A stretch of DNA of 64,000 bases, taken from contig NZ_CP060398.1 of NCBI RefSeq assembly GCF_015840915.1, positions 3,162,001 through 3,226,000 on the forward strand. The letters are read 5' to 3'. Numbering within the stretch: position 1 is the first letter of the stretch; each line of letters begins with the position of its first letter. The notes beneath the pieces are model-generated. The model had not been told where the DNA came from, did no database searches, and saw only the letters and a list, made by a program, of their open reading frames with translations. This DNA comes from Synechococcus sp. CBW1002 (GTDB lineage: Bacteria > Cyanobacteriota > Cyanobacteriia > PCC-6307 > Cyanobiaceae). This document shows, in pieces, positions 4,833 to 63,717 of this stretch. A program made the position numbers and the translations under genes.

Positions 4833-5585
4833 ATGTCCGTCGACCCTCTTGCCACCGCGAATGCGCCCCAGCAGGGCGGCCCCAGCGTGGCGCTGCGGGG
4901 CCTGAGCCACTGGTACGGAAGCGGCGCCATGGAACGGCAGGTGCTGCAGGGGATCGATCTGGAGATTCATCCCGGCGAGGTGGTCTTGCTCACAGGACCA
5001 TCCGGCTGCGGCAAGACCACCCTGCTCACCCTGGTGGGGGCCTTGCGCCAGGTGCAGGAGGGATCGGTGCGGGTGCTCGGCCAGGAGCTGCTCGACTCCA
5101 ACAGGCGCCAGCTTCAGCGGCTTCGCCGTCAGATCGGCATGATCTTCCAGGGGCACAACCTGCTGGGCTTCCTCAGCGCTGAGCAGAACGTGCAGATGGG
5201 CTCCGACCTGCTCCCCGGTCTCGGCTATCGCGCCCGCCGCGACCAGGCCCGTGAATGGCTGCGGGCCGTGGGCCTGGGCGATCACCTCGGCAAGCTGCCC
5301 CACGATCTGTCCGGTGGCCAGAAGCAGCGCGTGGCGATCGCGCGTGCCCTGGCTTCCCATCCGCGCCTGCTGCTGGCCGACGAGCCCACCGCCGCCCTTG
5401 ACAGCCGCAGTGGGCGTGAAGTGGTGGAGCTGCTGCGGGGGCTGGCCCGGGAGCAGGGCTGCGCGGTGCTGATGGTGACCCATGATCCCCGCATCCTCGA
5501 TGTGGCGGATCGTCTGGTGCGGATGGAGGATGGCTGCCTGCAGGAGCAGGCAGATCCACGGCCGCTGGTGAATGCCACGGCCTGA
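4833..5585 (+). CDS. DevA-type ABC exporter ATPase
   Basis: 250 residues with a complete ATPase set: Walker A GPSGCGKT (residues ~55-62), Q-loop Gln (IFQGHNL, ~106), signature LSGGQ (~159-163), Walker B LLLADEP (~179-185), D-loop AALD and switch His (THDP, ~217). It belongs to the LolD/MacB/DevA class that powers periplasm-spanning exporters and drives the neighbouring DevC permease. The 77-base gap from devC contains a short direct repeat and C/T-rich sequence but no clear terminator, so co-transcription is likely. Confidence 0.9.
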   Translation: MSVDPLATANAPQQGGPSVALRGLSHWYGSGAMERQVLQGIDLEIHPGEVVLLTGPSGCGKTTLLTLVGALRQVQEGSVRVLGQELLDSNRRQLQRLRRQIGMIFQGHNLLGFLSAEQNVQMGSDLLPGLGYRARRDQAREWLRAVGLGDHLGKLPHDLSGGQKQRVAIARALASHPRLLLADEPTAALDSRSGREVVELLRGLAREQGCAVLMVTHDPRILDVADRLVRMEDGCLQEQADPRPLVNATA

Positions 5586-5699
5586 GCCAGGTCTGGAGCG
5601 GGGTGTTGGGCTGGGCGGTGTTTCGGGAATCCCCAGCCGGACGCTGTCTGACGATTGGCTAGGGTTGAAGTTCAGTCATTTCCACTTACCGCAGGCCGT

Positions 5700-5855
5700 A
5701 TGTCCAAGCGCAGGAATCTCAAGAAGGAAAAACAGGAACGCAATCGCGCTTACGCGCGCAAGTTCAAGAAGCGCAAGCTGCGCAACGATGGCCGCGGTGA
5801 AGGGGCCGGCAATGGCGTGACCGGCACGGCCAACAACGGCGGCGCTGCTGATTGA
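5700..5855 (+). CDS. Small highly basic conserved-type protein (51 aa), function unknown
   Basis: 51 residues, N-terminal half strongly Lys/Arg-rich (MSKRRNLKKEKQERNRAYAR...), C-terminal half Gly/Asn/Ala-rich. The charge suggests binding to RNA, ribosome or DNA, but no domain is recognisable. I recall similar small basic proteins in picocyanobacterial genomes without assigned function. It stands alone and is followed within 30 bases by a strong intrinsic terminator, which supports a genuine, separately terminated gene. The in-frame extension to 5655 lacks a convincing start context. Confidence 0.7.
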   Translation: MSKRRNLKKEKQERNRAYARKFKKRKLRNDGRGEGAGNGVTGTANNGGAAD

Positions 5856-5884
5856 GTCCAGCTGCTTGCTGGGCCCGGAGAGTC

Positions 5885-5910
5885 AAGGATCCTGCGGGAT
5901 CCTTTTTTTT
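5885..5910 (+). terminator. Intrinsic terminator after the 51-aa protein gene
   Basis: Perfect 8-bp stem AAGGATCC/GGATCCTT with a TGCG loop, followed by an unbroken T run to 5910: a textbook rho-independent terminator for plus-strand transcription. Confidence 0.9.
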
Positions 5911-6033
5911 CGCCCGACTGTTGTCCCGGCGCCCGACCGACCGCCTCGTCATCACCGGCGCGCCCCTTGCTCTGCGCCTTGCTGCTGCCTCTGCTTCTGC
6001 AGACCCGCAGCCTGTACCCCCTCCTGAGCGGCC

Positions 6034-6957
6034 ATGTTTCTGAGCGTCGTCATCCCCACCTACAACCGCCTGCCGATCCTGCGGAAATGCCTGCTGGCAC
6101 TGGAGGCTCAGCAGCTGGCAGCGCCGGTTGAGGATTTCGAGGTGGTGCTGGTCGACGACGGCTCCACCGACGACACCGTCACCTGGCTTGAGCAGCAGGC
6201 CGATCTGCTTCCCCATGTGCGCCTGATCCGCCAGGAACACGGAGGCCCGGCCGAAGGGCGCAACCGCGGTGTCGATCATGCCCACGGCGATGTGATCGTG
6301 TTCATCGACAGCGATCTGGTGGTGCTGCCCGACTTCCTCTGCTGCCATGCCCGCGCCCTGCAGCGCAGCTGGCAGAGCCGCGGCGACAAGCTCTGCTTCA
6401 CCTATGGCGCCGTGATCAACACCGCCAACTTCGAGGAACCCACCAGCGAACCGCACAAGCTCAACGACCACTCCTGGGCCTACTTCGCCACCGGCAACGT
6501 GGCGATCGATCGGGAGCTGCTGGAGCGCGCCGGCCTGTTCGACACCAGCTTTCGCCTCTACGGCTGGGAGGATCTGGAGCTGGGGGAACGACTGCGCAGG
6601 CTTGGTGTGGTGCTGGTCCGTTGTCCTGAAGCCGCCGGCTATCACTGGCATCCGCCCCTGAGCCTTGAGCAGATCCCTGATCTGATCCGGGTCGAACGCG
6701 AGCGGGCCAAGATGGGGCTGGTGTTCTTCCGCAAGCACCCCACCCGGCGGGTGCGCTTCATCATCCAGTACACCTGGCTGCATCGCGCCCTCTGGGAGCT
6801 GCTCACGCTGGGTGGTCTGCTCAATGAACGCAGCCTCAGACCTCTGCTGGCCTGGCTGATTCGCCATGGCAAGGCAGGGCTGGCGATGGAGCTGCTGCGG
6901 CTGCCGCTCAACCGCATCGGCGTTCGGGCGCTGTATGGGGAAGCGCGCCAGGCCTGA
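6034..6957 (+). CDS. Family 2 glycosyltransferase
   Basis: 307 residues with a GT-A fold: N-terminal SVVIPTYNRLPIL, nucleotide-binding VLVDDGSTDDT (~residues 45-55), and the metal-binding DxD in VFIDSDLVVLP (~90). An acidic region, YGWEDLELGERLRRLG, resembles the ED catalytic-base motif of inverting enzymes. No membrane helix is obvious. It would transfer a sugar from a nucleotide donor to a polysaccharide, lipid or protein; donor and acceptor are not readable. It is a single gene between the terminator at 5.9 kb and rpsB. Confidence 0.85.
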   Translation: MFLSVVIPTYNRLPILRKCLLALEAQQLAAPVEDFEVVLVDDGSTDDTVTWLEQQADLLPHVRLIRQEHGGPAEGRNRGVDHAHGDVIVFIDSDLVVLPDFLCCHARALQRSWQSRGDKLCFTYGAVINTANFEEPTSEPHKLNDHSWAYFATGNVAIDRELLERAGLFDTSFRLYGWEDLELGERLRRLGVVLVRCPEAAGYHWHPPLSLEQIPDLIRVERERAKMGLVFFRKHPTRRVRFIIQYTWLHRALWELLTLGGLLNERSLRPLLAWLIRHGKAGLAMELLRLPLNRIGVRALYGEARQA

Positions 6958-7136
6958 GGGGCTGTGGAGCCAGCAACACCATTTGATACGGTGTCTGGGT
7001 CCTATTCACCGCACACCTGTCCGTTTCGGGTGATCGGGCATGACATTGCCAATCCCTCCTTCCAGGGTAGTTGGCGTCTTTCAGTCGTGCCAACGGATCC
7101 CAGGCAGGTGGAGGCCAACCCGAAACTTCCCGATTC

Positions 7137-7853
7137 ATGGCTGTTGTCACCCTTTCCGAAATGATGGAGGCGGGTGCCCACTTTGGGCACCAGACCCGCC
7201 GCTGGAATCCCAAGATGTCGCGCTACATCTATTGCGCGCGCAACGGGGTCCATATCATCGATCTCGTGCAGACTGCCGTCTGCATGAACAATGCCTACAA
7301 GTGGGTGCGTAATGCCGCCCGCAGCGGCAAGCGTTTCCTGTTCGTGGGCACCAAGAAGCAGGCCTCCGAGGTGATCGCCATTGAGGCCACCCGCTGCGGC
7401 GCCTCCTATGTGAACCAGCGTTGGCTGGGCGGCATGCTCACCAACTGGACCACGATGCGGGCCCGCATCGACCGCCTCAAGGACCTGGAGCGCATGGAGA
7501 GCTCCGGTGCCATCGCCATGCGCCCCAAGAAAGAAGGCGCTGTCCTGCGGCGTGAACTGGAGCGTCTGCAGAAGTATCTGGGTGGCCTGAAGAACATGCG
7601 CCGCCTGCCGGACGTGGTTGTTCTGGTGGACCAGCGCCGTGAGACCAACGCGGTGCTCGAGGCCCGCAAGCTGGACATCCCCCTGGTGTCGATGCTCGAC
7701 ACCAATTGCGATCCGGACCTCTGCGACGTGCCGATTCCCTGCAACGACGACGCCGTGCGTTCGGTGCAGCTGGTGCTCGGCCGCCTCGCCGATGCCATCA
7801 ATGAAGGCCGTCACGGTGCGCAGGACCAGCGCGGTGCCGACGACGAGAGCTGA
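7137..7853 (+). CDS. rpsB: 30S ribosomal protein S2
   Basis: 238 residues. The start [20 protein letters not shown] and the internal [11 protein letters not shown] and [12 protein letters not shown] are S2 hallmarks. S2 joins the small subunit late and helps recruit S1. Upstream in-frame ATG codons exist, but 7137 gives the canonical N-terminus. As in most bacteria, tsf follows, here after an unusually wide 247-base spacer. Confidence 0.97.
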
Positions 7854-56780: not shown

Positions 56781-57091
56781 GGCGTCAACTTCCTGGTAGG
56801 GGGCACCCGCCTGCCGGGCTCGACGCGGTGGATCCAGCACTGCCCCGTGGATGAGGATTCGCGGGTGAGGCTCTGGCTCTCCCAGTAGCCGCTCGCTCTT
56901 CTTGAGGGTGACGAAGCACACGTCACAACGCGTCGCCTCATCGAAGCTGGAGATTCCTGCGAAGCTGCACCCAGGCTGTGCAGGATCTTCCTTGGTACCG
57001 GTCAAGGTCACGTCGCTTGATCCGATGCGCAGTGGTCCATGCAAGGCATGATTCGCCCAGCCCGATCGTGATGGATCCCGGTGGTTTCTCG

Positions 57092-58393
57092 ATGAAGCGA
57101 CAAGGCGACGTAGCGTTGCCGCTTCCTGCTCGAGCGGGTATGGATGGCCGCTGGTTCGCCCTACGGGCCAGGCGCGTCCTGGGCGGTGTGCTCGCATTCT
57201 GCCTGAGCGGAGCTGACCCCGTCTGGGCCATGCAGGCCAGCGAGGCAGCCGCGGCGGATTCGCCCCAGGCGGCCGCCATCCTTCGGATCGTTCGCAACCG
57301 TATGGCTGTTGATCACCTGCGGGCGGTGATTGTGCGCGTCACGATCGACGGCAAGGAGGTTGTCACCGAGGCGATGGGCGAGTCGATCACGGGCGTGCCC
57401 GCCACGGAGGGCATGCATTTCCGCAACGGTGCGGTCGCCATCTCCTACGTGGCGACGCTGCTGCTGCAACTGGTCGACGAGCACAAGGTGCGTCTCGACG
57501 ACAAGCTCTCGACCTGGCTGCCGGACATCCCGAATGCGGATCGGGTCACGCTTGGTCAGCTCGCCCAGATGACCTCCGGCTACCGCGACTACGTGATCGG
57601 CAACGACGCGTTCGTCCAGGCTCTGCTCGAAAACCCGTTCCGTCAGTTTTCGGTACAGGATCTGCTCTCCTACGCGAACCTTCAGACGCTCTGGTACGAG
57701 CCCGGAACGAGCTGGAATTACGCGCACACGAATTACGTTCTCCTCGGTCTGGCGCTGGAGAGAATCACGGGCAAGACCATGCCCGTGCTGATGCAGGAGC
57801 GGATCTTCGGACCCCTGAACATCCGTAACACCCGGGATCCCGGCGGCACGCCCGTGATCGCGCCGCCGGTGCTTCACGCCTTCTCGTCGGAACGGCGCCA
57901 GGCCCTCGGCATCGCCCCAGGAACGCGCTTCTACGAGGAGTCGACCTACTGGAACCCGTCGTGGACGCTCAGCCGCGGCGCAGTCCAGTACACCACCATC
58001 CACGACATGGCGACGTCCGCCGAGGCGATCGGGACGGGTCGGCTGTTGTCGCCGGAGACCCACAGGCAGCAGATCTCTCCGAAGCTTCGGGGCTTCGGCA
58101 AGCCGATCGAGGGCTGTGCGACCTGCGCCACCCTCAACGACTTCTACACCTATGGGATCGGGATCGTCCTCTCAGGCCCCTGGCTGCTGCAGAACCCGCT
58201 GTTCTCTGGACAGGCCGGGGTGATGGCCTACCTGCCCTCGCAGAAGATCGCGATTGCGGTGGCGGTCACCTTCGACGAACAGGCCTTCGACTCCAGCGGT
58301 GCGTACCGCAACTCAGCTGATGACATCTTTCGCGCGATCGGCGCCTACCTGGCGCCGGAGGAACGCCCGCCCATCAGGCCCAGCAGCCGGTAG
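57092..58393 (+). CDS. Beta-lactamase-fold (class C/serine hydrolase) protein lacking the catalytic residues
   Basis: About 433 residues. An N-terminal signal-like segment ends near ADPVWAMQA. The beta-lactamase/DD-peptidase fold is evident (VTLGQLAQMTSGYRDYV, SWNYAHTNYVLLGLALE, ERIFGPLNIRNT), but the SxxK motif, expected as FRxGSVTK, reads FRNGAVAI: both nucleophile Ser and general-base Lys are absent. The YxN motif is YAH and the third motif is SGQAG. It is therefore probably a non-enzymatic binding protein, or uses other residues. Codon use looks different from neighbours and it is bracketed by gene scraps, pointing to acquisition. Starts at 57071 or 57140 are also possible. Confidence 0.8.
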   Translation: MKRQGDVALPLPARAGMDGRWFALRARRVLGGVLAFCLSGADPVWAMQASEAAAADSPQAAAILRIVRNRMAVDHLRAVIVRVTIDGKEVVTEAMGESITGVPATEGMHFRNGAVAISYVATLLLQLVDEHKVRLDDKLSTWLPDIPNADRVTLGQLAQMTSGYRDYVIGNDAFVQALLENPFRQFSVQDLLSYANLQTLWYEPGTSWNYAHTNYVLLGLALERITGKTMPVLMQERIFGPLNIRNTRDPGGTPVIAPPVLHAFSSERRQALGIAPGTRFYEESTYWNPSWTLSRGAVQYTTIHDMATSAEAIGTGRLLSPETHRQQISPKLRGFGKPIEGCATCATLNDFYTYGIGIVLSGPWLLQNPLFSGQAGVMAYLPSQKIAIAVAVTFDEQAFDSSGAYRNSADDIFRAIGAYLAPEERPPIRPSSR

Positions 58394-58555: not shown

Positions 58556-61500
58556 TCATTCTGGTTTCCTTCCCAGAGCATCAGCTGATCCACGGCTTCG
58601 TTCACGTGGATGATGCGGTTTCACCAACCGTGATGATCGCGCTTGCGGTGCTGCGGACGCTGTTGTGGGCACTGGACACAGCGTGCCCCGCATCAGCAGG
58701 CTGTGGGCGGCCGGCACATAGAACAGGGCCAGGGCGGTGGCCCCCAGCAGACCGCCCGACACCGCGATCGCCAGCGGCGGCCAGAAGCCGGTGGGATCCA
58801 GCATCAGCGGCAGGAAGCCGGTCACGGTGGTGAGCGTGGTGGTGATCACGTGGCGGGTGGCGGGCAGCACAACGGTGGTGGTGGCGGCAGGGTCGCCGCT
58901 GGCGGCGAGTGGATCGGTGCGGATGGCGTTGAGCACCACGATCGCGTCGTTGATCGCCAGGCCGATCAGGCCGAGCGTGCCCAGGATGGCGGTGAAGCCG
59001 AACAACGATCCGCTCAGCTTCAGGGCCAGGGCCGCCAGACCGACCGACAGCAACGCCACCGAGGCGATCAGAGCCGCCAGGCGGAAGGAGCGGAACGACA
59101 GCACCAGGGTGGCGGTCATCAGGATCGTCAGCACCCCCACCGTGGAGAGCAGGTTGGCGATGGCATCACCGCGGGCATCGGCTTCACCGCCGTAGGACAG
59201 CGTCACCCCGGCCGGCAGTTGCCAACCCTCCTGGTCCAGCTGCTGCCGGAACCCGCCCAGCACGGCATCGGGCAGCGACCCGGCGGAAAGAAAGGCCTGC
59301 ACGGTGTTGATGCGCTGCCCGTCACGCCGATCGATGGAGGCCAGCTCCGGTTCCAGCCGCAGGCGTGCCAGGGCCGAGAGCGGCAGGCTGTCGCCACTGC
59401 TGGGAGACACCACATCCAGGGAGGCCATCTGCTGAAGATCCTCCCGCTGGGCTTCGGCCACCTGCACCCGCACCGGCAGGCTGGTGACGCCTTCGAGGAT
59501 CGAACCGCCCACGACCCCTTCGAGGCCGGCCTGCAGTTGCCGGGCGATGGCGCGGTTGTTGAGGCCGCTGCGCTGGGCCTGCTGTTCATCCACCGCCAGG
59601 GCCAGACGGGGCAGGGCTTCGCTGAGGCTCGCACTCGTGTGGGTCACCGCCGCCTGTTGCGCCAGGCGCTGCCGCAGCTCATCACCGATCTGCCGCAGCT
59701 GCGTCAGGTCGGGGCCCTGCAGGCGCAGCTCGATCGGTGCCTCGAAGGGCGGACCCTGCTCCAGCTGCTTGACCAGCATCTGCGCTTCCGGGAAGGTCCG
59801 GTCCAGGCTCTCCTGAAGGGAGCGAAGGGTGTCACGGAGGCGAGAGATGCTGTGAAGCTGCACCAGGCCTTGGGCGTAATGGGGCGCGTTCTCCTGGGAG
59901 GCGACCACGTTGTAGAAGAACAGCGGCGCGCTCTCGCCCAGGAACCAGTGCACATCGGCGACGCCGGGATGCTCGCGCAGGCGCTGGCGGGCGGCCAACG
60001 CCAGCGCTTCGGTGCGGTCCAGGGTGCTCTGCTGCGGCAGGCGCATCTCGATCTGGAACTGGTCGCGGTTGGTGGGCGGAAAGAACTGCTGCTCGAGGCT
60101 GCCGAAGGCCACGAAGCCGAGCACCGGCAGCACCAGCGACAGGGCCACCCCCTGTCAGGGATGCCGCAGGGCGTGCTGCACGGTGCGGCGGTATCGGGTC
60201 GCGAGCAGGGGCAGCGACAGCCCCTGCTCCCACCAGCGCGCCCGTGGCCCCAGAGGCCGCCAGTGCTGCAGACGGGCGGTGAGCGCCGGGATCACCGTGA
60301 GGGAGAGGAACAGGGAACTGGCCAGCGCCAGGATCACCGTGAGGCCGATCGTGCCGATGAATTCCCCGGTGGCCCCCGGTGAGGTGGCGATCGGCACGAA
60401 GGCCAGCACCGTGGTGAGCGTGGCGGCCAGCATCGGCACCAGCAGGTAGCCCACCGACTGACGCACCGCGGCGCCGGCGGAGACACCGCTGCGCAGGCGT
60501 TGCTGCATCTCATCGACCACCACGATGGCGTTGTCGATCAGCAGCCCCAGAGCAATCACCAGGCCGGTGGCTGACATCTGATGCAGAGGAATCGCCAGGA
60601 GCCGCATCCAGCCGAACACCATCAGGGCGGCGAGGGGCAGGGCCGTCCCCACCACCAGCGCCGCCCGGCCACCGAGCATCAGCACCGACACGGCCACCAC
60701 CATCAGCGCGCCGGTGATCAGGTTGCCGATCACACCATCGAGGCGCTCCTGCACGTAGCGGCTCTGATCCAGCACCGTGTGCAGCCCGAGGCCTTCGGGC
60801 AGGGCTGCGCGAACCTCCTCCAGCTGCGCGCGCGCCTGCTGCGCCCAGCGGTCCACACGTTCACCGGAGGCCACCGTGGCCGACACCACCACGGCGGGAT
60901 GGCCGTGCACCAGCGCCAGCCGACTGGCGGGGCTGCGCACGCCCCTGCTCACCGCTGCCACCTGCCCCAGGCGGGTGCTGGCGCCATCGGCGCCCGTTTG
61001 CACGGGGATGGCGCGGATGCGCTCCAGCGAATCCAGGGCGCCATCCACCTGGAGCAGCAGCGCGCTGCGAGCGCCCCGCACCTGCCCGGCCGCCTCCTTG
61101 GCATCACTGGCGGCGATGCGCTCGGAGAGGCCCTGGGCCGTGAGCCCGAGTCGGGCCAGGTCTCGGGCACCGATCGCCACCTGGATCTCCTCGTCTGGCT
61201 CGCCGCTGAGTTCCAGTTTGTCGGTGCCGGGAAGGGCGCGCAGGCGGGTTTCCAGATCCTCCGCCAGGCGGGCCAGCAGCCCCAGATTGGCGGGTCCGGG
61301 CAGGTCCCAGGTGAGCCCGACGATCAGGGCACTGGCGCCGATGTTGCCGTCGCGGAATTCCGGACCTGAGGCCTCTGGCGGCAGCAGGGGGGTGGCATTG
61401 TCGAGCTTGCTGCGCACCTTGCTCCAGGCCGGCTCCACATCTCGGATCGAATCCTTCAGAGCCACGGCGATCATTGAGGTGCCGGCGGACGAGGTGGAGT

Positions 61501-61735
61501 CGAGATGGTCCACCTCCTGCAGTTCCAGCAGGGCATCTTCGAGTGGTTCGGTGAGCAGCGATTCGACCCGCTCCGGCGTGGCCCCCGGCAGGGCGGTGAT
61601 CACCAGGGCATTGCGCTGGGTGATCAGCGGATCCTCCAGCCGCGGCAGGGTGAGCAGCGACGACAACCCCCAGACCACCACCAGCAGCAGGGTGAGCAGC
61701 AGCAGCTGCCGGTTGCGATGAAAGAGATCGAGCAT
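58556..61735 (-). pseudogene. RND efflux transporter gene split by one in-frame TGA
   Basis: About 1060 codons in a single frame, the normal length for an AcrB/HAE1-type inner-membrane pump, interrupted by one TGA at 60157-60155. The first half (RNRQLLLLTLLLVVVWGLSS, GLLIDNAIVVVDEMQ with the proton-relay Asp region, and periplasmic PN/PC domains) ends HALRHP; the second resumes directly with QGVALSLVLPVLGFVAFGSL and keeps PPTNRDQFQIEMRLP, GLAINDAIVVLNAIR and the last helices. Start is ATG 61735, overlapping the fusion-protein stop (TGATG). Unless the TGA is a base-call error, suppressed or recoded, the pump is not made in full length. A Trp codon (TGG) is the likeliest ancestor. Confidence 0.9.
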
Positions 61736-62982
61736 CAGATCGCTGCCTGCACCCATTGGCCCGGCACGACGCGATGGGTGCCGGTGGCGATCACCTGTTC
61801 ACCGGGGCGAAGGGTGCCGCGCACCAGCGAGCGATCGCCTTCGGTGTGCACCATCTCCACCAGGCGCCGGGCCACCTGCCGTGCCGGTTGTGGGCCTTGC
61901 GCTGCAGCCGCCTTGCCTTGGGTCGTCGAAGCGGGCACGAGCACGAAGACCGACCAGAGGCCCCGTTCCGCTGCCACCAGGGCGTCGGTGGGCAGCCAGA
62001 AGCCCGCCCCCCGTTCGCTGCGCTGCAAGGAGAGGCGGGCCGTCGCTCCCACCGGCAGATCCGCTGCCGGCAACCGCAGGACCACCGTGGCCGTGCGGCT
62101 GCCGGCATCGAGTTGCGGCAGCACGGCGCTGATCGTGGCCGTGAGGCGGCGGTCGCCCACGCTCACAGGATGGCTTTCGCCCACCCGCAGGACCTGGGCG
62201 ACGTCCGGAGGCACCCCCACGCGCAGTTCACGGGGGGCGGCTTCCACCAGGGTGAGCAGTGCCTGGCCGCCACTCACCACCACACCCTCATCAATCAGGC
62301 GCTCGCTGACCGTGGCGGCGAAGGGGGCCACGAGCACGCTGCGGGCCAGGTCGACATCGATCTGGCGCAGGCGGGCGCTGAGGTCATCGACCTGGCTGTC
62401 GGCCTGATCGAGGCGGCTGACCAGTGCCGCGGCGCCATAGATCTGCTGGTCGAGGTCTTCGAGGGAGATCGCCCCCTGGGCATGGAGCTTGCGGCGGCGT
62501 TCCCGCTGCAGCTCCGCCAGGGTGAGCTGCTGGCGCACTTCCTGCACGGCGGCCCGGGCGGTGCGCTGCTGCGCCAGCAGCTGCTGGCGCTGAGCCAGCA
62601 GCCGGCGGTTGTCGAGGCGGGCCAGCGGCCGGCCGGCCAGCACCGGATCCCCCTCTTCCACCAGCACCTGGGCCACGGTGCCGGCGAGCTCGAAGCCGAG
62701 GCTGCTGCTGCGGCCGGCCACCACCTCGCCGCTGTACTCCCGGCTGGTGCGGTACTGACTCACAGGCTGTGCCGTGACCACGGACACGGGCAGGGCCCTG
62801 GCCACAGGCGGACGGGGACGCTGGGCGACGGCCAGGGCGAGGCCCATGGCGGCGGTGAGTGGCAGCAGCCAGCGCAGCTGGCGGGAGGGTAGATGCTGCA
62901 GCAGTTGCCGCAGGGCCGGGTGCCGCAGCTGCGGCGGCGCGTGGGCGCCTGGAGCAGGCAGGGCACCGGAGGCGGAATCCAT
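61735..62982 (-). CDS. RND efflux membrane fusion protein (AcrA-like)
   Basis: 415 residues. N-terminal membrane anchor (LRWLLPLTAAMGLALAVAQ, ~37-55), then the lipoyl domain (SLGFELAGTVAQVLVEEGDP), a coiled-coil hairpin (RRLLAQRQQLLAQQRTARAA to LAELQRERRRKL), second lipoyl half (SVLVAPFAATVSERLIDEGV), beta-barrel (RVGVPPDVAQVLRVGESHP) and membrane-proximal domain (WLPTDALVAAERGLWSVFVL). It links the RND pump to an outer-membrane channel. It overlaps the pump start and is divergent from padR. Confidence 0.93.
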   Translation of the reverse strand: MDSASGALPAPGAHAPPQLRHPALRQLLQHLPSRQLRWLLPLTAAMGLALAVAQRPRPPVARALPVSVVTAQPVSQYRTSREYSGEVVAGRSSSLGFELAGTVAQVLVEEGDPVLAGRPLARLDNRRLLAQRQQLLAQQRTARAAVQEVRQQLTLAELQRERRRKLHAQGAISLEDLDQQIYGAAALVSRLDQADSQVDDLSARLRQIDVDLARSVLVAPFAATVSERLIDEGVVVSGGQALLTLVEAAPRELRVGVPPDVAQVLRVGESHPVSVGDRRLTATISAVLPQLDAGSRTATVVLRLPAADLPVGATARLSLQRSERGAGFWLPTDALVAAERGLWSVFVLVPASTTQGKAAAAQGPQPARQVARRLVEMVHTEGDRSLVRGTLRPGEQVIATGTHRVVPGQWVQAAI

Positions 62983-63004
62983 GGCGGCACGGCGGTGAGA
63001 CCAA

Positions 63005-63019
63005 CGTTGCTAGGCAACG
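63005..63019. promoter_or_regulatory. Palindrome 1, probable regulator operator
   Basis: CGTTGC-TAG-GCAACG, a perfect 6-bp inverted repeat with a TAG centre, 23 bases upstream of the fusion-protein start. It shares the GTTG(n)C-TAG-G(n)CAAC layout with the second palindrome. Confidence 0.7.
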
Positions 63020-63052
63020 CGTTGGGTATTCGCGAAAGTGTATGCACAACAA

Positions 63053-63067
63053 GTTGACTAGGTCAAC
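63053..63067. promoter_or_regulatory. Palindrome 2, probable regulator operator
   Basis: GTTGAC-TAG-GTCAAC, a perfect 6-bp inverted repeat, centred 48 bases from the first. An AT-richer patch lies between the two (around GTATTCG and GTATGCA), suitable for a promoter. Confidence 0.7.
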
Positions 63068-63171
63068 CGCGCCTGCGCGCTGCCGTCGTCGCCTCGGTGG
63101 TCGTCCCAGTGGTCGCGACGGGGGTGCGGGAGGAAGATCGGAAGGCCCAGCACCGCTGCCGATCGTTCCCC

Positions 63172-63717
63172 ATGGCCCTGGCTCACACGATCCTCACGGT
63201 GCTGAGTGAGAAGCCCGCCAGCGGCTACGACATCAGCAAGCAGTTCGAGGAAACCGTCGTCTGCTACTGGAAGGCCACCCAACAGCAGATCTACCGGGAG
63301 CTGGGAAAGATGGAGAAGCAGGGGTGGGTCTGCTGCCAGGTGGTGCCGCAGCTGGGAAAGCCCGACCGCAAGGTCTACGCCATCACCGAGACGGGCCGAC
63401 AGGAACTGAGCCGCTGGTCGGCGGAGCCCACATGGCCCACCCCGATCCGGGAGGACCTGCTGGTGCGGGTGCTGGGTGGTCCGTACGGATCGCGCACGCA
63501 ACTGCTGGAGGAAGTGCAGCGCCGTCGCGCCATCCATGGCCAGCAGCTGGCCTCCTACCAGGAACACGAAGCGGAGGTCCTGGCCCACGCCGCGTTGCCC
63601 CTGCAGGAGCAGTTCCGCTATCTCACCCTGCGCCGCGGCATCCTTTACGAACAGGAGTGGATCCGCTGGTGCGATGAGGTGATCGCCTTCCTGGACGCGC
63701 AGCCGCCAGGCTGCTGA
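63172..63717 (+). CDS. PadR-family transcriptional regulator
   Basis: 181 residues. N-terminal winged helix ALAHTILTVLSEKPASGYDI, SKQFEETVVCYWKATQQQIY and REL, wing LGKPDRKVYAITETGRQELSRW, then a C-terminal helical dimerisation domain (vinculin-like, PadR_C) from ~residue 90. PadR/AcrR-type regulators commonly repress adjacent efflux or detoxification genes on binding aromatic or toxic ligands. The divergent RND operon and two palindromes between support this. Start at ATG 63172; the frame extends further upstream without merit. Confidence 0.9.
   Translation: MALAHTILTVLSEKPASGYDISKQFEETVVCYWKATQQQIYRELGKMEKQGWVCCQVVPQLGKPDRKVYAITETGRQELSRWSAEPTWPTPIREDLLVRVLGGPYGSRTQLLEEVQRRRAIHGQQLASYQEHEAEVLAHAALPLQEQFRYLTLRRGILYEQEWIRWCDEVIAFLDAQPPGC

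Follow-up and report, generated by a model that had tools for sequence, protein, structure and literature searches.

Here we describe an RND efflux pump gene that is interrupted by a single in-frame TGA, and we argue that the stop is probably a very recent nonsense mutation in a pump that is otherwise conserved. The gene lies in a stretch of 64,000 nucleotides (the window) from Synechococcus sp. CBW1002, whose genome is a single contig of 3.85 Mb with a completeness of 99.74. Strains of Synechococcus, Cyanobium and Aphanothece are the named sources of related pumps, which places the host among the picocyanobacteria (the Synechococcus/Cyanobium family). In the course of events that we favor, a PadR-linked efflux operon made up of a membrane fusion protein (MFP, the periplasmic adaptor) and an RND permease would have gained one nonsense mutation a very short time ago, probably in this strain or the population immediately around it; the Trp that codon 527 encoded in the common ancestor with the closest known relative would thereby have given way to TGA. 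If the base is real and UGA terminates here, translation would end in a 526-residue N-terminal half, presumably unable to form a working RND trimer, and the pump would most likely be off while the MFP and the regulator stay intact.

The interrupted permease and its operon

The permease occupies a single frame on the minus strand (61735-58556), which translates as 1059 codons with one internal stop, a TGA at codon 527 (plus-strand positions 60155-60157) that is the only lesion in the frame. A preliminary description of this DNA had placed both halves of the pump in the same frame with nothing missing, and had read the junction as HALRHP-TGA-QGVALSLVLP. Translation bears out both points, with VQHALRHP in front of the stop and QGVALSLVLP behind it. 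Read through the TGA, the protein matches the Pfam profile ACR_tran (PF00873) over positions 2-1017 of 1021 (E 4.7e-147; score 491.8 bits, cut-off 28 bits), with both repeats present and the profile covered end to end. Taken separately, the N-terminal half (60158-61735, minus strand; codons 1-526, holding TM1-6 and the first periplasmic domain) covers profile positions 2-527, and the C-terminal half (58556-60154, minus strand; codons 528-1059 and the stop, in the unchanged frame) covers 535-1017; since each half accounts for its own part of the profile, no permease sequence has been deleted. Amino-acid identity with relatives is about 80-85% along both halves, and 83-88% for the N-terminal half against the family relatives, a likeness that, judged from the alignments, is far beyond chance.

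In its full-length profile match, its tandem-repeat architecture and its operon with an MFP, the pump resembles the HAE1/AcrB-type RND permeases (PF00873), but it differs from them in that its frame is not uninterrupted, being broken at codon 527. Its nearest solved relative by sequence is MexK (9xwg), and its score reaches the cut-off of no named NCBIfam subfamily. The C-terminal tail of the pump (58556-58690, minus strand) exceeds the tails of relatives by about 10-35 residues and differs, after ...HSLLMR, from that of the sister locus L017, for which a rearrangement downstream may be the cause. Directly downstream lies a serine-hydrolase/beta-lactamase-like gene (56978-58393, plus strand), whose homologue (about 80-83% identical) flanks the operon at its PadR end in loci L010-L016, so that gene order has been rearranged around the locus.

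The partners of the permease are intact. The MFP gene (61735-62982, minus strand) matches TIGR01730 with 146 bits, over the cut-off. Its stop, TGA, and the start of the pump, ATG, overlap as TGATG. Divergent from it runs the gene of a PadR-family regulator (63097-63717, plus strand; PF03551 and PF10400), which stands beside the MFP gene in relatives as well and may start at the ATG at 63172. The gap between the MFP and PadR genes holds two dyads, GTTGCTAGGCAAC at 63006-63018 and GTTGACTAGGTCAAC at 63053-63067, each a probable operator with a matching dyad in L010, L015 and L020, the last of these being a distant Leptolyngbya locus in which they lie at about 4590 and 4639. The two dyad types, GTTGAC...GTCAAC and GTTG...CAAC, some 47-49 bp apart within window positions 62983-63171, are common to picocyanobacteria and Leptolyngbya, and we regard these shared elements before the operon as probable PadR operators on sequence grounds. 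The earlier claim that the MFP gene, the divergent PadR gene and the operators are intact is upheld, both frames being open and both dyads having counterparts in relatives. Literature searches on a PadR-linked MFP-RND operon and on bacterial UGA context found nothing, and on translated pseudogenes they returned general work only.

Homologues and the ancestral codon

The pump, searched for at E <= 1e-100, is present in 19 of 400 family genomes, the window's own counted, and its distribution in the family is patchy. All 16 intact family pumps are one ORF across the stop position, as are 17 distant homologues from a phylum-wide sample, and encoding by two genes at the RND junction was found in neither group; the homologues normally made as two separate proteins, which the preliminary description had considered, did not turn up. 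Likewise, none of the 17 distant homologues has a stop at the position of codon 527 (four have Trp there), and no homologue shares the stop with the window.

The closest relative, Synechococcus sp. CCY 9618 (L017, identical with L025), is 85% identical and has TGG (Trp) at codon 527, and the two are sisters in a codon-based tree with support of 100/99. The equivalent codon is Trp also in L035-L040, Gly in the Cyanobium/Aphanothece group and Arg in L016; altogether, Trp occupies the position in the closest relative and ten further homologues. Because Trp is shared by the sister and the outlying L035-L040, it is ancestral at this codon, in agreement with the original residue proposed earlier. 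The flanking codons, CCC-xxx-CAG-GGG-GTG, are identical in the window and in L017, so the suggested comparison with the closest strain finds Trp in an unchanged codon context. The sister locus has a peculiarity of its own at the start of its pump, where AGG stands in place of the ATG (L017, position 5998) and translation probably begins one codon earlier, at a GTG that overlaps the stop of the MFP gene. The stops that the genome search flagged in L025, L027, L029, L033, L036 and L111 fall on or beyond the usual C-terminus of the pump and not within it, and were set aside.

The operon is broken in other relatives as well. In Cyanobium sp. CZS25K (L019, a MAG; 4953-7696) both the MFP and the pump carry frameshifts, the latter at about residue 368, and the pump lacks residues from about 447 to 870, a deletion of some 425 residues. 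Microcystis elabens FACHB-917 (L023; 6001-8191) retains only frameshifted pump fragments, with no MFP or PadR gene nearby. These lesions are older than the stop in the window and independent of it. A second genome, the only other one of this genus, contains no such pump and gives only weak MFP matches, and it cannot date the stop. Since the operon is patchy and broken elsewhere, it appears dispensable, and an ordinary inactivating mutation is easy to accept.

Selection on the two halves

Selection was measured with our own implementation of a Goldman-Yang type codon model (F3x4, nine sequences). On the end branch leading to the window, omega is 0.10 for the N-terminal half and 0.106 for the C-terminal half, against background values elsewhere in the tree of 0.129 and 0.111, and the difference between branch and background is significant in neither half (2dlnL 0.78 and 0.03, respectively). 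Purifying selection acted on both halves along this branch, and the codon model rules out an old pseudogene. Forcing a fraction f of this branch to evolve neutrally lowered the whole-gene log-likelihood by 1.47 at f = 0.03 and by 2.85 at f = 0.05; the 95% limit on a neutral phase (interpolated) is about 3.7% of the branch for the whole gene and about 6.7% for the C-terminal half alone. If the stop ended selection, that end fell within the last 4% or so of the window branch.

The window alters 5 of 412 otherwise invariant positions, and the intact sister L017 also alters five. A simple count of amino-acid changes in the C-terminal half gives 17 for the window and 9 for the sister (23 versus 10 in the comparison with L016), a slight excess that was considered as a sign of relaxation and taken as noise; the likelihood fit found no relaxation, and it is preferred because it accounts for silent changes and branch length.

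The low omega leaves three options, namely that the stop is very recent, that it is functionally irrelevant, or that it is not real. A very recent lesion, one of three possibilities raised in the preliminary description, is the best supported of them, with no trace of decay under the codon model. Like other recent nonsense pseudogenes of bacteria, the permease has one stop, no further lesion, no relaxed selection so far and intact partner genes; its homologues are intact and the ancestral codon is a sense codon. It differs from them in that the stop falls on the junction of the RND repeats. The missing decay is not specific to a recent mutation, since it is equally expected under a base-call error or readthrough.

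Competing explanations and their meaning

Ranked second, and unlikely in our judgment, is an error of sequencing or assembly, in which a wrong base was called at codon 527 of an intact pump. A lone substitution without decay, in a gene under selection, is how a base-call error would be expected to look, but a substitution is unlike the homopolymer indels typical of long-read errors. The remainder of the genome speaks against it as well: its eight ACR_tran matches represent six pump genes, with an internal stop in the present pump only and none in the seven other RND matches, and none of the 49 ABC-transporter ATPase matches genome-wide has one, so that no abundance of errors or nonsense codons is visible in the assembly or in the genome at large.

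In this genome UGA serves as a normal stop codon. TGA ends 16 of the 18 clear ORFs that were checked in the window, including both other genes of the locus, and prfB is intact in the genome, which together rule out a genome-wide reassignment of UGA. The anticodons of all 46 tRNA genes of the genome were read, and none is UCA, the Trp tRNA having CCA. The test for a UGA suppressor tRNA that was suggested earlier thus found no dedicated suppressor by anticodon, and any misreading would fall to the near-cognate tRNA-Trp(CCA). Selenocysteine is rejected too: a search with the tRNA-Sec model returned only ordinary tRNAs below the cut-off, and relatives have Trp, Gly or Arg at the codon.

That near-cognate Trp-tRNA reads through the TGA to some degree, giving some full-length pump, is very improbable. 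A UGA followed by C and preceded by a Pro codon is a context linked to slow termination, and this context is present at the stop; the inserted residue would match the ancestral Trp, and the purifying selection on both halves would fit as well. The flanking codons, however, are inherited, being the same around Trp in the sister, and offer no sign that recoding was selected for; a stop at codon 527 was seen in no homologue, and the tRNA searches found neither a UCA anticodon nor a tRNA-Sec over the cut-off. The locus resembles known UGA recoding (readthrough, selenocysteine and codes with UGA as Trp) in that a UGA stands in frame where the ancestor had a Trp codon, but here UGA is the commonest stop among the checked ORFs, no matching tRNA was found, and the stop is not conserved.

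The least probable reading of all is a pump in two pieces, in which UGA would end the N-terminal half, translation would restart at a GTG 6 nt on (60148, minus strand), and the half-permeases would assemble. Codon 527 falls in the linker that joins the RND repeats. Right after it comes a hydrophobic stretch, which alignment with RND pumps of known structure suggests to be TM7, and the cut separates the two profile halves. If all single-base changes that could create a stop in the gene are counted, residues 520-535 receive just 2.7% of them (4.7% when only transitions are taken), and the in-frame GTG opens a C-terminal half of 530 codons. Yet the sister and most relatives have this GTG too, as an ordinary codon for Val, the sole Shine-Dalgarno-like run, AGGGG, abuts it with zero spacer, no split homologue was found, and the argument from position is post hoc. 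A functional two-piece pump, or insertion of Trp at the UGA at a rate that would let selection still act on the pump, is improbable even when the two are taken together, and nothing positive supports either low-level readthrough or a working split pump.

The evidence points to an ordinary gene-breaking mutation or a sequencing error, and not to a new reading of the code; as a recent nonsense mutation, the stop is an ordinary event. The stop would matter more if the half proteins or a readthrough product were shown, since a cut falling exactly between the repeats of an RND pump would let nature test whether two halves can function as separate chains. As a real mutation, it adds a further sign that this patchy operon is dispensable in picocyanobacteria, three lineages of the set each having broken it on their own.
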